34,511 bases of DNA. Origin: Aquificaceae bacterium (GTDB lineage Bacteria; Aquificota; Aquificia; Aquificales; Aquificaceae). The notes below the pieces were generated by a model. That model worked only from the letters and a program-made list of their open reading frames with translations. It made no database searches and was not told the DNA's origin. The stretch lies in assembly GCA_025056375.1 (NCBI GenBank), contig JANWWH010000010.1, forward strand, positions 1 through 34,511. Direction: 5' to 3'. A program made the translations under genes and the position numbers. This document shows positions 4,930 to 11,145 of this stretch, piece after piece. Within the stretch, counting starts at the first letter, position 1, and every line of letters starts with the position of its first letter.

Positions 4930-5214
4930 ATGAGGTTAATCGCCAGAAGTGTGAGCATAGAGGTGGTTGGTGATATACACAGATGTCACGAGGGTGAGGA
5001 TGCAAAGTTTTACTGTCTTCCTGTAAAGATACACTTTGACAACGGCGAGGTTAAGGAATACATGCTGAAAGCTCACGGTGAACCAAAGACCCTAAAGGAC
5101 TTTCTTGACAACAAGAAGGGTCTAAGAGATAGAATGGAAAAGTCTTTTGGTCTTTCTGAAGAGGGTAAAGTTCTATACGCTGGATACATGAGGGAAGAGC
5201 TCCCTGACCGCTAA
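4930..5214 (+). CDS. Hypothetical protein (94 aa)
   Basis: Complete ORF; TAAAAT 6 nt before ATG; 3' end overlaps convergent ribF by 42 bp. Confidence 0.55.
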   Translation: MRLIARSVSIEVVGDIHRCHEGEDAKFYCLPVKIHFDNGEVKEYMLKAHGEPKTLKDFLDNKKGLRDRMEKSFGLSEEGKVLYAGYMREELPDR

Positions 5215-6132
5215 CACATCTTCCTTTATCTGCCTTGCCAGCTCCTCAGGGCTGGAGAACCTCCTCTCCTCCCTCATAAACTTGAGGAACTCCACCCTTA
5301 TGCGCTCGCCCCTGAGGTCTCCCTTGAAGTCAATTATATGCACTTCAAGAACTTTATCTCTTCCTCCAAAAGTGGGTCTCCTGCCGTAGTTGGCAACGCC
5401 TGGAAGCTTTCCTTCTACCCTTACCGCATACACGCCTTCCTTAAGACAAAGGTTTTCTGTGTTTTCAAGGTTCGCAGTGGGAAAACCAAGAGAGAGACCC
5501 CTTCGGGCACCACCCACTACCCTTCTCTCTATCCAGTAGTTTCTGCCAAGATAGAGGGCGGCCTCTTCAAGCCGCCCTAGATGAAGGAGCCTTCTTATAA
5601 AGGTGCTGCTGACCACATGCCCCCCTACCCTGAAGGGCTGGGTTTCCTCTACCTCAAAATCAAGCTCCTTACCCATCTCCCTTGCCAGCTCTATCTCCCC
5701 TTCTCTTCTGTAGCCAAACCTCCAGTCATGACCTACTACCAAATGCCTGCACTGAAGCCTTTCGTATAGGACTTCCCTTATAAACTCCTCCGCACCCATC
5801 CGGGCAAACCTTCTGCCAAACTTTATAAATACCACCCCTTGGATGCCCTCTTCCAGTATAAGGGTAGCCCTTTCCTGAAGGCTTGTAAGTTCGCAAGGTG
5901 ACTGGGCAGGGCTGAGGACCATGAGGGGATGGGGATAGAAGGAAAGCACCAGGCTTTTTAGCCCCCTTTTCTCTCCTATCTCTTTTACCTTTCTTAGGAG
6001 GTGTCTGTGACCCAGATGCACGCCGTCAAAGTTGCCCACCGTTATGACGGTAGGGCTTTCCTCTCTTTCCAGACAACTCAGACCTTTCGGACACCCGCTA
6101 TAGCTTGTCTTTAAAAAGGCTACTTTTTCCAT
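5173..6132 (-). CDS. ribF: Bifunctional riboflavin kinase / FAD synthetase
   Basis: VGNFDGVHLGHRHLL, VVGHDWRFGYRREGE, VSSTFIRRLL, GFPTANL, GVYAVRV, VANYGRRPTFGG motifs. Confidence 0.95.
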   Translation of the reverse strand: MEKVAFLKTSYSGCPKGLSCLEREESPTVITVGNFDGVHLGHRHLLRKVKEIGEKRGLKSLVLSFYPHPLMVLSPAQSPCELTSLQERATLILEEGIQGVVFIKFGRRFARMGAEEFIREVLYERLQCRHLVVGHDWRFGYRREGEIELAREMGKELDFEVEETQPFRVGGHVVSSTFIRRLLHLGRLEEAALYLGRNYWIERRVVGGARRGLSLGFPTANLENTENLCLKEGVYAVRVEGKLPGVANYGRRPTFGGRDKVLEVHIIDFKGDLRGERIRVEFLKFMREERRFSSPEELARQIKEDVLAVRELFPHVSSV

Positions 6133-6716
6133 ATTTTCTTTATCCTTTCCCAGAAACTCACCTCCTGGCTGACTTCCACCCTTTCCTCTATGGTAAACCT
6201 GTCCATGTAGTCGTCCAACAGGAGAAAGCGGTCACAAACCTTACGCAAATGGTAAGAGCTTGTCCTCTTAAAAGTAGCGTTTTCTACCCTCTTGCCTATC
6301 CTTTGAACTTCCTCCACCGTGTAGGAGAAGTCGCTGTCACCGCTCACGAGCACCGCAGTGTCAAAGACGTTCATGTAAGCCATGCTGAGCATATCCGTGG
6401 CGAGCATAATGTCCACTTCCTTCTCTATGTATTCGCCCGAAGGGAGCCTCCGAAGCCTTGCCAGTTTTACCTTTATACCCTGAAGGGCAAGCTCCTCCAG
6501 AAACCTTCGCTGTCTGAGGTAGCTCTCCCACTCGGGGCTGTTTTTCTTCAGGTCCTTCTCCTGAGGCACCGCACCGTAAAAGTAAGCCCTTATGAGTTTT
6601 CTGTCTTCTCTCAAAAAGTCAAGCAGCTTTTGGTAGTCTATCCTTAGGTTCATATACCTTATGGCATGAAAGAGGTTGGAACCGTCTATGAGTATAACTA
6701 CCCTCTCATAGTTCAT
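6120..6716 (-). CDS. NYN-domain (PIN-like) ribonuclease family protein
   Basis: VVILIDGSNLFHAIR, KEVDIMLATDMLSMAYMNVFDTAVLVSGDSDF: conserved acidic residues of the NYN/LabA-like fold. Overlaps upstream gene by 4 nt and ribF by 13 nt. Confidence 0.88.
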   Translation of the reverse strand: MNYERVVILIDGSNLFHAIRYMNLRIDYQKLLDFLREDRKLIRAYFYGAVPQEKDLKKNSPEWESYLRQRRFLEELALQGIKVKLARLRRLPSGEYIEKEVDIMLATDMLSMAYMNVFDTAVLVSGDSDFSYTVEEVQRIGKRVENATFKRTSSYHLRKVCDRFLLLDDYMDRFTIEERVEVSQEVSFWERIKKIWKK

Positions 6717-7933
6717 AGAGCAAACCGCATGAAGCAGGCAAGCCCATCTACCCTCTTCTGGAGCTCTTCGGAGACTATGGTTTTCACCCTCGCCTTTTCC
6801 TCGAGGGCAAACTCCAGCACTTCGTCCACCACATCGGGCACTTCATAAGCCTTTTCCTCCATTGGACACTCGGGCTTAAGAAGGGGTAGGTGCGACTTCT
6901 CACACACATAGCCTGGCTTGTGAAAGTCCAGTGGCACGAGCAAAAGTCGCACATTGCCCATGTGAAGCTGTTCGAGCACCCTTGAAGTCCCCCTTACCGC
7001 AAGACCCTTCCCTTCAAGCTCCTCAAGCTCTTTCAAAAGTTTCTCCTCCTCTTCCTTACCCTTTTCCAGAAGAAGGTTAAAGACCTTTTCCTTTAGTTCC
7101 TCCGCATCCACATAGGAGGGGCTTGCCTGTATGTATCCTACGAGCCTTTCCATTAGATAAGTGTGCAGGTGATTTTCTATCTCTTTTATATCCTCTCTGT
7201 CTGAGCCTATCACCAGCCTGTCGAACTTGTTTTCCTTCCAGGCTTCCATGAGGGCGTCGCAGGCAATCTTAAAGAGCCTGTGTTTCTCCTCCCTTATCCT
7301 CATGTGAAACCTGTATTCGCCAAAGGAATGCTGAACCATGTTAGGTCCCCCTACCCTTGAGGGCATGGAAAACCTCATAGTACCCTCCGCACCCTTGAGC
7401 ATGCTACCGCCAGAGTGAAACTTGTGAGCTCTGGTTGCCAAGGGCTCCACGAAGTCCGCCACCTCCCTCATACCCTCTAAGTCAAGGAGGAAAAACCTTA
7501 CATGCTTTCTATCCAAAAGGAGAAGACCAACCCTTCCTAACTCCTCGTCCAAGGAGGCTATCTCTCTTATGAGGGGGTCGGGGGATACAAGAAGCCTGTT
7601 TCTGTATGTGTAGGGCAGTTTTAAGAACTCAAAAAAACCCTTTGGAGAGCAGGAAAAAAGGGCTATGCCCCTACAGCCCTTAAGGTTCTCCGGCTCTGAC
7701 AGAAAACTTTCCATCCTTTCAAAATCCCTCTCCACACCTCTGAGGACGCCTTCTTCCAACCCCCTTTTCTCCAAGTATTCCCTCTGGATTTTAACCAAGT
7801 CTTTGAAGGTTCTCAGATACTTTCTGTCACTCCTTTCCTCCACCCCCAGCCTTAGATAGAGATTGGTAACCATGTAGCCCTCTGTTTTGAGAGCTAAAAG
7901 GTTTTCCATGGTCTCTTTCAGAGCTTTCATCAC
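6713..7933 (-). CDS. VLRF1/baeRF-type (Vms1/eRF1-like) release-factor homologue
   Basis: LLLLDRKHVRFFLLDLEGM...HKFHSGGSMLKGAEGTMRFSMPSRVGGPNMVQHSFGEYRFHMRIREEKHRLFKIACDALMEAWKENKFDRLVIGSD: GG...Q loop and central eRF1-like domain pattern. Confidence 0.72.
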   Translation of the reverse strand: MMKALKETMENLLALKTEGYMVTNLYLRLGVEERSDRKYLRTFKDLVKIQREYLEKRGLEEGVLRGVERDFERMESFLSEPENLKGCRGIALFSCSPKGFFEFLKLPYTYRNRLLVSPDPLIREIASLDEELGRVGLLLLDRKHVRFFLLDLEGMREVADFVEPLATRAHKFHSGGSMLKGAEGTMRFSMPSRVGGPNMVQHSFGEYRFHMRIREEKHRLFKIACDALMEAWKENKFDRLVIGSDREDIKEIENHLHTYLMERLVGYIQASPSYVDAEELKEKVFNLLLEKGKEEEEKLLKELEELEGKGLAVRGTSRVLEQLHMGNVRLLLVPLDFHKPGYVCEKSHLPLLKPECPMEEKAYEVPDVVDEVLEFALEEKARVKTIVSEELQKRVDGLACFMRFAL

Positions 7934-7951
7934 TACCTCCTTTGCATGTCT

Positions 7952-9157
7952 TTAATCCTTATATTTTACCAGAAGCTCTCTGGCGTAGCGTTCCTTGAGC
8001 TTGTCCTCTTCTCCCCAAAGGATACCTATCACCTTCCAGCGCCTGTTTTCTCCGAAGGTAAAGTATATCCTTCCACCCATGGGCTTGAGTTTGAACACGT
8101 TCCTATAACCCTTCATTGTCTCAAACCTCTCCTCGTATCCTTTCATGTTCAGAAGGAAAAGCTCTCTTAGGAATTCTTTCCTCGCTTCTCTGTTCAAATG
8201 CAAGAATTCTCGGACTACCCGCTCTTCCAGTTCTACGTTTTCCAAAAGGCTTTCAAACATCTCTCTGTAAACTTCCTTTTTGCCCTCCCACTGCACCCTC
8301 AGGTTTTCCACTTCCAGCTTTAGAGCTTCCTTTTCTCTCTTCTCCTTTTCAAGTGTCTGCCGTAGGTTTTCGTAGTCTTGCCCAAGCTCCTCCTTTTCCC
8401 TAATAAGCTCCTCTATTAACTCATGGAGTTGGACGAGTTCCTTGGAGAGCCTTTTCCTCTCCTGTCTTAGCCTTGAAAGTTCATCCTTTGCACTCCTCGG
8501 CTCTCTCTCCTGAAGCGCGTCGAGCATGTCAAAGAGTTCTCTGTTTACGCGCGTAAGCCTCTCCAACCTTTCTGAGTATTCCTTTAACCTCCTGTGGTTT
8601 TCTTCGAGCTTCCCCATGAGCTCCGCCCTTTCTCTTTCTAACCTCTCCTTCTCTGCCAGTTCTTCTTCTCTTAGCCTTCTGTATTCTCTCTCTATCATCT
8701 CCTTCTCTATGTTGAGCCTATGGGTTAGCTCTCTTAAAAGGTTCATCTGCTCAAAAAGCCCACTTATCTCGCTTTGATTTTTGGAGAGCTCTTCCTCAAG
8801 TCTTTTCCTTTCCTCCTCAAGCTTCTTTGTTCTTCTTTCTACAGGAGACTCAAAAAGCCATATGAGGAACAGAGTGATTAAAAGAGAGGGAAGGAACTTA
8901 GTTATGGTGTGGTATTCTTCTCTAAAGAGCGAAAGTCCTATGACCTGAAAGAGGTATACGTAGGCAAGCCACACCACAGTCTTCTCTCTGTATCCAAAAA
9001 GCCAGGCAAGGTAGAGGGCGGAGTTAAGAGAAATAACCATGAGAAGACCCTCCAAGTCGTTAGGAAAGAGGTAAAAAGAGAGAAAAAGAGATAGGTAGTG
9101 AAGTGTAAAGTTGTAGGAGACTATCAGAAATAATAGCTTGAGAGCCTCTCTTACCAT
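7952..9157 (-). CDS. Membrane-anchored coiled-coil protein with C-terminal RelE/ParE-like domain
   Basis: From ATG at 9157: N-terminal TM segments (LLFLIVSYNFTLHYLSLFLSFYLF..., LLMVISLNSALYLAWLFGY...), ~200-residue Glu/Arg/Leu-rich coiled coil, C-terminus FLHLNREARKEFLRELFLLNMKGYEERFETMKGYRNVFKLKPMGGRIYFTFGENRRWKVIGILWGEEDKLKERYARELLVKYKD. Track start at 9238 would overlap divergent mazG. Confidence 0.65.
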   Translation of the reverse strand: MVREALKLLFLIVSYNFTLHYLSLFLSFYLFPNDLEGLLMVISLNSALYLAWLFGYREKTVVWLAYVYLFQVIGLSLFREEYHTITKFLPSLLITLFLIWLFESPVERRTKKLEEERKRLEEELSKNQSEISGLFEQMNLLRELTHRLNIEKEMIEREYRRLREEELAEKERLERERAELMGKLEENHRRLKEYSERLERLTRVNRELFDMLDALQEREPRSAKDELSRLRQERKRLSKELVQLHELIEELIREKEELGQDYENLRQTLEKEKREKEALKLEVENLRVQWEGKKEVYREMFESLLENVELEERVVREFLHLNREARKEFLRELFLLNMKGYEERFETMKGYRNVFKLKPMGGRIYFTFGENRRWKVIGILWGEEDKLKERYARELLVKYKD

Positions 9158-9166
9158 AGTTATAAT
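9138..9166 (+). promoter_or_regulatory. Sigma-70-type promoter for mazG, predicted leaderless transcript
   Basis: TTGAGA (9138-9143) - 17 nt - TATAAT (9161-9166) - 7 nt - ATG (9174). Confidence 0.7.
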
Positions 9167-9173
9167 ATAGGCT

Positions 9174-9932
9174 ATGGAAATTTTCCTCCAGCTCCTGAAG
9201 ACCATGGAGGAGCTCCGCTCAAAGTGTCCTTGGGACAAAAGCCAAACCCACGAAAGTCTAAAAAAGTATCTCTTAGAGGAGGCTTACGAGCTTCTTGATG
9301 CCATAGAGGCAAAAGAAGACCAGAGGTTAAAGGAGGAGCTTGGAGACCTACTCCTGCAAGTGGTCTTCCACTCTCAGATAGCAAAGGAGAGGGGTTCTTT
9401 TGACATATGGGATGTGATAGGAGCGCTCAACAGAAAGTTGGTGGAAAGGCATCCTCATGTCTTTGGTTGTGAAACCCCTGAAGAAGTGCTCCAGAACTGG
9501 GACAGAAGGAAGCTGGAGGAAAGAGAAAGTCTTCTCGAGGGCATACCTAAGAGCTTGCCAGCTTTGATGAGGTCCCAGAAGTTGCAGGACAGGGCTAGCC
9601 TCGTGGGCTTTGACTTTGAAAGACCGGAGCAAGCTCTTGAAAAGCTCATGGAAGAATTAGAAGAGTTCAGAGAAGCCCTCAACTCTGGCAACAAAAAAGA
9701 GTTAGAGCACGAACTCGGTGACCTGCTCACCGCAGTGGTGGAACTGGGAAGACTTCTCGGTCTTGATGCGGAGTTTTGTCTCCAGAGGGCAAACGACCGC
9801 TTCGAAAGCAGGTTCAGATACATGGAAAGGAGAGCTAAGGAGCTCGGAAGAAAGCTCGAGGATATGAGCCTTCAGGAGATGGACCAGCTCTGGCTTGAGG
9901 CTAAAAGGTTTGACTACAGACAAGAGGGCTGA
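9174..9932 (+). CDS. mazG: Nucleoside triphosphate pyrophosphohydrolase MazG
   Basis: CPWDKSQTHESLKKYLLEEAYELLDAIE, EELGDLLLQVVFHSQIA, second ELGDLLTAVVELGR repeat. Confidence 0.95.
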   Translation: MEIFLQLLKTMEELRSKCPWDKSQTHESLKKYLLEEAYELLDAIEAKEDQRLKEELGDLLLQVVFHSQIAKERGSFDIWDVIGALNRKLVERHPHVFGCETPEEVLQNWDRRKLEERESLLEGIPKSLPALMRSQKLQDRASLVGFDFERPEQALEKLMEELEEFREALNSGNKKELEHELGDLLTAVVELGRLLGLDAEFCLQRANDRFESRFRYMERRAKELGRKLEDMSLQEMDQLWLEAKRFDYRQEG

Positions 9933-11145
9933 CCTTCCTGCCTGTCCTCTTCTCAAAGTATCTCACGCCCGGGTTTCCAAGACTGCTCGCACCTGCAAAG
10001 AGGTATGCTTTGGAACCCTTCAAAATGTCCTTCCGCTCCTTTAACAGTATATCCTTTACCTGAGAGAGGCTTATGCCCCTGCAGTCCTGAAGGGTGTCCG
10101 CAGGCAGAAACTCTATCTCCTCCGCAGACTGACTGCCTACGAGAAGTAGGATAGACTTATCAGGACCTATGCTCGTCTGAAGAGTTGCCACCGCCCTGTT
10201 TTTCAAGAGTAGCCCCTCATACTCCGCAGGGACGAGGAATGTAGGTTCACAGAGACCGTCAAAAAGTTCAAGGGGTTCATCCTTTAAACTCTCCATAAGC
10301 ACCACCCTGAGACCGCCCCTGCTGTAGTAGATGGTGTTGCCTACTTTTTCGAGAGGGTCTGCCTTGAGAACACCCCTTATGGAAGGTGAATAGGGTCTAA
10401 CGAAGGAAGGGAGAGCCTCACCACCCACTTCCAGCTTACCGCTAAGCAGTTTCCAGTTAAGAAAGCCAAACTCCCACTCCCTGCAAGGAAGCCTGAGCTC
10501 CTGCTCCGCAAAAAGCCTTACCTCCTTTAGGAAGAGGAGCTCTTCCTTGCTTCCCGGTCTTCTACCGCCAGAGGACAAAAGGTCCCACTGCACCTCACCC
10601 TTCTTCTGCTTGAAAAGTCCGTATATACAACCACAGTAATCCTGATGGTATATCTCCAGCTCCTTGGATAGTCTAAACATCTCCTGAGTGCCACCGCCTT
10701 TCCTGTAGTCTAAGGCTAAAAACTCGATTCCGGAACCCTTACAGACCTTTTCACCGCTCTCCTTTAGCATGAGGAATTCCTTCTTAGGGCTCATCAGTAG
10801 GGTGGTGGTCAGATGAGTGGCACCCACCTCCCCTGCGAACTCCACACTTCTCAAAAGCCTGTAGTCGAAGCAAAGCTCACACCTTTTGCCCCTTTCAGGC
10901 TCCTCCTCGTAGCCCTTTACCGCCCCCAACCAGCCTTCAAGGTCGTATTCACCCTCGTGGAGTTCTATGCGGAGCTCTTTGCATATCCTTTGGGTTTCCA
11001 AAAACCTTAACTTGTATTCCTCGTAGGGGTGTATGTTAGGGTCGTAAAAAAAGCCCACCAGCTGAGACTGAGGGTAGTCTTCCCTAAGTTTTTTGAGGAA
11101 GTATACTGCGTCTGGCGCACAGCAGATGTGGACCAGAATTTTCAT
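9901..11145 (-). CDS. queH: Epoxyqueuosine reductase QueH (DUF208) with ~210-aa C-terminal extension
   Basis: ILVHICCAPDAV, FYDPNIHPYEEYKLR, RGKRCELCFDYRL, YHQDYCGCIYGL; residues after ~200 show no QueH motifs. Confidence 0.88.
   Translation of the reverse strand: MKILVHICCAPDAVYFLKKLREDYPQSQLVGFFYDPNIHPYEEYKLRFLETQRICKELRIELHEGEYDLEGWLGAVKGYEEEPERGKRCELCFDYRLLRSVEFAGEVGATHLTTTLLMSPKKEFLMLKESGEKVCKGSGIEFLALDYRKGGGTQEMFRLSKELEIYHQDYCGCIYGLFKQKKGEVQWDLLSSGGRRPGSKEELLFLKEVRLFAEQELRLPCREWEFGFLNWKLLSGKLEVGGEALPSFVRPYSPSIRGVLKADPLEKVGNTIYYSRGGLRVVLMESLKDEPLELFDGLCEPTFLVPAEYEGLLLKNRAVATLQTSIGPDKSILLLVGSQSAEEIEFLPADTLQDCRGISLSQVKDILLKERKDILKGSKAYLFAGASSLGNPGVRYFEKRTGRKVSPLVCSQTF

Follow-up and report, generated by a model that had tools for sequence, protein, structure and literature searches.

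RelE cuts mRNA in the ribosomal A site, an activity that depends most on R61, R81 and a Tyr stack (PMC2807027), and Rae1, an NYN enzyme, also works in the A site (PMC6613710). The Balon proteins (P. urativorans Balon, Msmeg1130 and Rv2629) are three-domain factors of the aeRF1 type with no conserved GGQ-type loop, and A-site occupancy was shown for Balon by Helena-Bueno et al. (PMC10901736). Burroughs and Aravind predicted that most baeRF families act non-catalytically at the A site (PMC6514570). Here, we describe a cluster of three adjoining genes in a 34,511-nucleotide stretch of an Aquificaceae bacterium genome (contig JANWWH010000010.1, assembly GCA_025056375.1; hereafter the window) that encode a 401-aa membrane protein with a RelE-fold domain, a 406-aa Balon-like factor and a 198-aa putative RNase with an NYN domain (Table 1).

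We tentatively read this cluster as an A-site-directed module for translation silencing and mRNA decay, partly held at the inner membrane, which we regard as a real possibility while stopping short of calling it probable. The Balon-like factor would enter the A site and block it without releasing the peptide. Carried on the end of a coiled-coil rod anchored in the membrane, the RelE-fold domain would reach ribosomes near the membrane, dock in or near their A site and cut the mRNA there, and the NYN protein would cut or clear exposed mRNA. Ribosome binding and RNA cleavage are suggested by what is known of the protein families, and a shared pathway of the three proteins is likewise inferred. 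The more specific proposal, that an antitoxin-free chromosomal RelE-type A-site nuclease on a membrane rod acts with a Balon-type factor and an NYN RNase to silence near-membrane ribosomes and cut their mRNA under stress, giving a spatially organized shut-off, is doubtful. The cluster suggests an undescribed route to silencing protein synthesis at the membrane. A RelE-superfamily domain in a clade-wide membrane protein without antitoxin would show the domestication of a toxin fold for localized translation control; being linked to a Balon-like factor and an NYN protein, it offers a testable tie between ribosome hibernation and mRNA cleavage. Candidate functions also emerge for three little-understood proteins that a family of thermophiles has conserved.

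The AlphaFold2 model of the 401-aa protein (mean predicted local distance difference test, pLDDT, 83) contains four membrane-length helices, two long helices (residues 105-304) and a C-terminal β-α-α-β-β-β-α domain, the fold of RelE. The membrane anchor and the coiled coil proposed in the initial annotation are thus both predicted by the model. A strongly charged, Lys/Arg-rich segment lies just past the fourth transmembrane helix, and the number of helices together with this charge points to an N-in/C-in topology, which would place the RelE-fold domain in the cytoplasm.

The top Foldseek matches of this model were RelE, HigB2 and ParE toxins; the best RelE chains reached a probability of 1.00, target-normalised template modelling scores were ~0.63-0.73, and the E-values are modest (2.3e-3 at best) because most of the query is coiled coil. 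Likewise, searching the PDB with the whole protein returned generic coiled coils only, so the C-terminal domain was searched alone, and E. coli RelE (E = 9e-4) was then the sole PDB family below 0.01. Using hhalign, the domain also aligned to RelE/ParE proteins of other Aquificota genomes (P = 7e-9, or 7e-6 without the sequences of family f3; in our survey of 136 Aquificota genomes, f, g, G and L denote family, genus, genome and locus). The G109 ortholog surfaced in a genome search for PF05016 and exceeds the cut-off of that family (25.8 vs 23 bits). Single C-termini from f1 genomes returned no RelE/ParE match in Pfam, and the protein of the window taken by itself stays below the PF05016 cut-off. 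By fold, profile and the PF05016 match in G109, the protein first annotated as RelE-like does carry a C-terminal RelE-superfamily domain.

As in RelE, where R61 is accompanied by Lys/Arg residues on the same strand, the domain is rich in constrained basic positions. R363, which aligns to R61, is invariant in 40/40 orthologs, and K356, K/R358, K386, K388 and Y/F391 are nearly invariant, K356 and K/R358 lying near RelE K52/K54-R56. Unlike RelE, which belongs to a type II toxin-antitoxin system, this domain is the C-terminal part of a membrane coiled-coil protein encoded by a clade-wide chromosomal gene that has no antitoxin: no conserved small same-strand open reading frame (ORF) adjoins the RelE-fold gene in nine loci. 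A pattern scan of one genome per species (84,980 species) retrieved 32 loci, all labelled Aquificota except one labelled Acidobacteria, whose contig shows the Aquificota gene order, and we detected the RelE-fold membrane protein in no phylum other than Aquificota. The exception, L088 (RFFP01000016.1, recorded as Acidobacteria bacterium), is an Aquificota-type locus with the same gene order and 57-59% identity, and its label is probably wrong. The collection of papers searched contained no relevant one on a membrane-anchored RelE or on a RelE with transmembrane helices and a coiled coil.

The three minus-strand genes are tightly packed, and all the coordinates given for them in the initial annotation hold. 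The RelE-fold gene is separated from the factor ORF by 18 bp, or by 21 bp if the factor begins at the ATG at 7930, one codon inside the ORF, which is most likely its start, as in the orthologs. The overlaps are 4 nt (ATGA) between the factor and NYN genes and 13 nt between NYN and ribF. The factor was found in 52 of the 136 genomes (51 above the PF18856 cut-off, plus a remnant in G054), the RelE-fold protein in ~60 and NYN proteins, distant paralogs counted in, in 128. Throughout family f1, NYN comes immediately after the factor in all genomes that show both genes, and the RelE-fold gene precedes the two in genera g1, g2, g3, g4 and g9 as well as in G050 of g8. The neighbours are more local: mazG and queH adjoin the block in g1 only, and ribF lies directly past NYN only in g1, g4, g6, g8 and g9. 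As the order is kept in other genera where mazG, queH and in some cases ribF are gone, conservation of the block goes beyond local synteny, and the association proposed earlier is kept across related genera. The coupling to ribF is real as an overlap but local, and since ribF adjoins NYN in some genera only, it is probably no part of the module but a housekeeping gene transcribed along with it.

The factor and the RelE-fold gene co-occur even where they are unlinked (47 genomes with both, 4 with the factor only, 13 with the RelE-fold gene only and 72 with neither; Fisher p = 8e-20, without phylogenetic correction and thus only descriptive). Neither gene occurs in g5, f4 or f5, and f2 has only a single factor copy. 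That copy (L030, G103:C63) sits on a 3.8-kb contig with ~60% identity to the f1 copies and reflects either contamination or transfer.

Several observations weigh against a single A-site module. To begin with, the Balon-like factor and the RelE-fold domain would contend for one and the same A site, unless they act at different times. In the RelE-fold domain, K386, K388 and Y/F391 are possible stand-ins for RelE R81/Y87, but the alignment is ambiguous there, so that these equivalents are uncertain. The co-occurrence is uncorrected for phylogeny and stems from a small number of events at clade level. In the other g8 genomes, g10, g11 and f3, the RelE-fold gene lies at a separate locus, and NYN is widespread in the phylum without the factor or the RelE-fold gene. 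Finally, at least six genomes (G012, G014, G019, G035, G043 and G047) keep the RelE-fold and NYN genes side by side but lack the factor that would lie between them. As the scars differ, these losses look like separate deletions: the L083 junction retains the first and last factor codons, the L123 junction the last codons, and in G054 (L194 4865-5113) the factor is reduced to short N- and C-terminal pieces within an 86-aa frame beside NYN. At least several of the genomes are metagenome assemblies, and an assembly error is possible in individual cases. The genes initially described as a three-gene cassette are therefore conserved in association, but do not form an obligate three-part system, and as several genomes have retained both the RelE-fold and the NYN gene after losing the factor, these two proteins can probably function in its absence as well.

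The uncertainty over R81/Y87 leaves room for a RelE-fold domain that is catalytically dead and acts as a tip that binds ribosomes or RNA, parking idle, Balon-silenced ribosomes at the membrane, with NYN as an independent RNase. The replacement of Tyr391 by Phe in 9/40 orthologs would fit such a docking role, as would the lack of the antitoxin partner that an active soluble toxin usually needs. However, RelE Y87F alone stayed active (PMC2807027), tethering itself could limit toxicity, and the R61-equivalent Arg and the dense basic residues are strongly constrained. We consider docking alone unlikely, if not easily dismissed.

The repeated loss of the factor alone, the occurrence of NYN without the other two across most of the phylum, and the other locations of the RelE-fold gene would also be expected of co-transcribed housekeeping genes with no common pathway, their order reflecting shared expression only. 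This is the less credible of the two explanations, as the order is retained in five genera that lose the other neighbours, the factor and the RelE-fold gene have a common presence pattern, unlinked cases included, and each of the three families includes proteins that target ribosomes or RNA.

The Balon-like factor is a full-length baeRF_family12 (PF18856) protein (3.1e-20, 73.6 bits vs a gathering score of 27.7), with a weaker match to baeRF family 10, above its Pfam cut-off, and a sub-threshold match to eRF1 domain 3. It also matches, below threshold, three NCBIfam ribosome hibernation factor families (AOC03_06830, MSMEG_1130 and Rv2629); the Balon equivalog cut-offs are far from reached (55.3 vs 330 bits and 48.5 vs 480 bits). 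A PDB search with a profile of 27 Aquificota relatives retrieved archaeal RF1 and Balon Msmeg1130, and the top Foldseek matches of the AlphaFold2 model were ribosome-bound Balon and aRF1, ahead of Pelota (E-values of 7.9e-15 for 8v9j and 2e-11 for 8rdv); as this model is weak (mean pLDDT 60.8, 17 close sequences), its matches were weighed jointly with the profile evidence. The best structural matches are thus Balon proteins, which the profile search retrieved as well, yet the factor differs from them by a loop insertion of ~28 residues, by an invariant Arg123-Glu124 that aligns to a His-Pro of Msmeg1130, presumably the published HP motif, and by a gene that adjoins the NYN and RelE-fold genes rather than RaiA. 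HPF/RaiA was considered as an operon partner and rejected: HPF is present in nearly all genomes, yet lies on another contig in this one.

The initial annotation rightly gave this protein an eRF1-superfamily origin, but its assignment to VLRF1/Vms1 was rejected: acVLRF1 (PF18859) has no match in the genome, no VLRF1 family is among the Pfam matches of the factor, and the GGxSQ loop is missing. VLRF1 and Vms1-ANKZF1 are distant eRF1-superfamily kin from a different clade (PMC6514570). The peptidyl-tRNA-cleaving activity proposed with that assignment also lost its footing, as no conserved GGQ-type or GGxSQ catalytic loop was found in the factor alignments. In alignment with other baeRF proteins, an invariant Glu206 occupies the position of the catalytic Gln, and the insertion lies between GG and this Glu. 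Peptidyl-tRNA hydrolysis therefore seems unlikely, given the Glu at the Gln position, the insertion and the poor conservation of Gln201, and the factor is more likely an A-site blocker than a peptidyl hydrolase. The insertion is itself conserved (LKGAEG...MPSR) and partly common to L179, the closest homolog outside the phylum; it is a possible counterpart of the Balon lasso or bL27-trap loop.

A ribosome rescue system, in which the middle protein would hydrolyse peptidyl-tRNA on stalled ribosomes while two nucleases cut the mRNA, is accordingly very improbable. The GG at residues 175-176 is nearly invariant, Gln201 is common among f1 copies, and some members of baeRF family 10, which the factor matches above cut-off, are maybe catalytic (PMC6514570). 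Nevertheless, Glu206 occupies the aligned catalytic position, the factor is not a VLRF1, and Gln201 falls inside the insertion, with Arg in its place in f3 and no counterpart in L028 and L079.

The NYN domain named in the initial annotation was readily confirmed. The protein matches PF01936 (E = 1.6e-31), the domain of the NYN/LabA-like nucleases of the PIN superfamily, its acidic residues D11, D102, D127 and D129 are invariant, and 2qip is a solved relative. It lies outside PF05991, the family of its functional analogue Rae1/YacP, which is absent among its Pfam matches and has no match in the genome. In PADLOC, the NYN protein matches the HEC-09 and LabA-like NYN models, and RelE folds are common among toxin-antitoxin systems, but an anti-phage defence or toxin-antitoxin system is the least credible explanation of all, given the broadly clade-wide distribution, the stable order, the lack of an antitoxin, a factor without PADLOC match and a membrane protein with coiled-coil matches only.

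Table 1 Features of the cluster in the window and factor deletion junctions at related loci.
Feature	Position	Strand	Details and basis
Membrane/coiled-coil ORF (RelE-fold gene)	7952..9157	minus	401 aa; ORF call, AlphaFold2 model, Foldseek, orthologs
Four predicted transmembrane helices, residues 2-101	8855..9154	minus	Model helices 2-25, 35-54, 57-79, 83-101; hydropathy
Predicted coiled coil, residues 105-304, break near 218-223	8246..8845	minus	Model; generic coiled-coil matches
RelE-superfamily domain, residues 306-399	7961..8242	minus	Foldseek, profiles, ortholog Pfam match, R363 conservation
Balon-like factor ORF, baeRF_family12, three aeRF1-type domains	6713..7933	minus	406 aa; Pfam, NCBIfam sub-threshold, PDB profile, Foldseek
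Expanded central-domain loop HSGG-[~28 aa]-GExRF, residues 173-209, replacing the GGxSQ loop	7307..7417	minus	Alignments
NYN-domain (PIN-like) putative RNase ORF	6120..6716	minus	198 aa; PF01936
ribF (FAD synthetase/riboflavin kinase)	5173..6132	minus	Pfam; overlaps NYN ORF
Factor deletion junctions	L082 9206-9214; L083 1536-1613; L122 5832-5852; L123 6299-6337; L124 4311-4314; L125 3246-3271		Differing scars

For 15 homologs of the factor outside the phylum, no NYN or RelE-fold gene lies within ~4 kb. Judging from the translations, some of them adjoin an HPF-like gene and GroEL, or DnaJ and a DegP-like protease.

In the window, mazG lies upstream of the RelE-fold gene and is divergent from it. 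Only 16 bp (9158-9173) separate the two start codons, so the promoters must overlap coding sequence or one another. A QueH homolog at 9901-11145 is 414 aa long, with PF02677 spanning residues 3-176 only and the other ~235 residues having no Pfam match.

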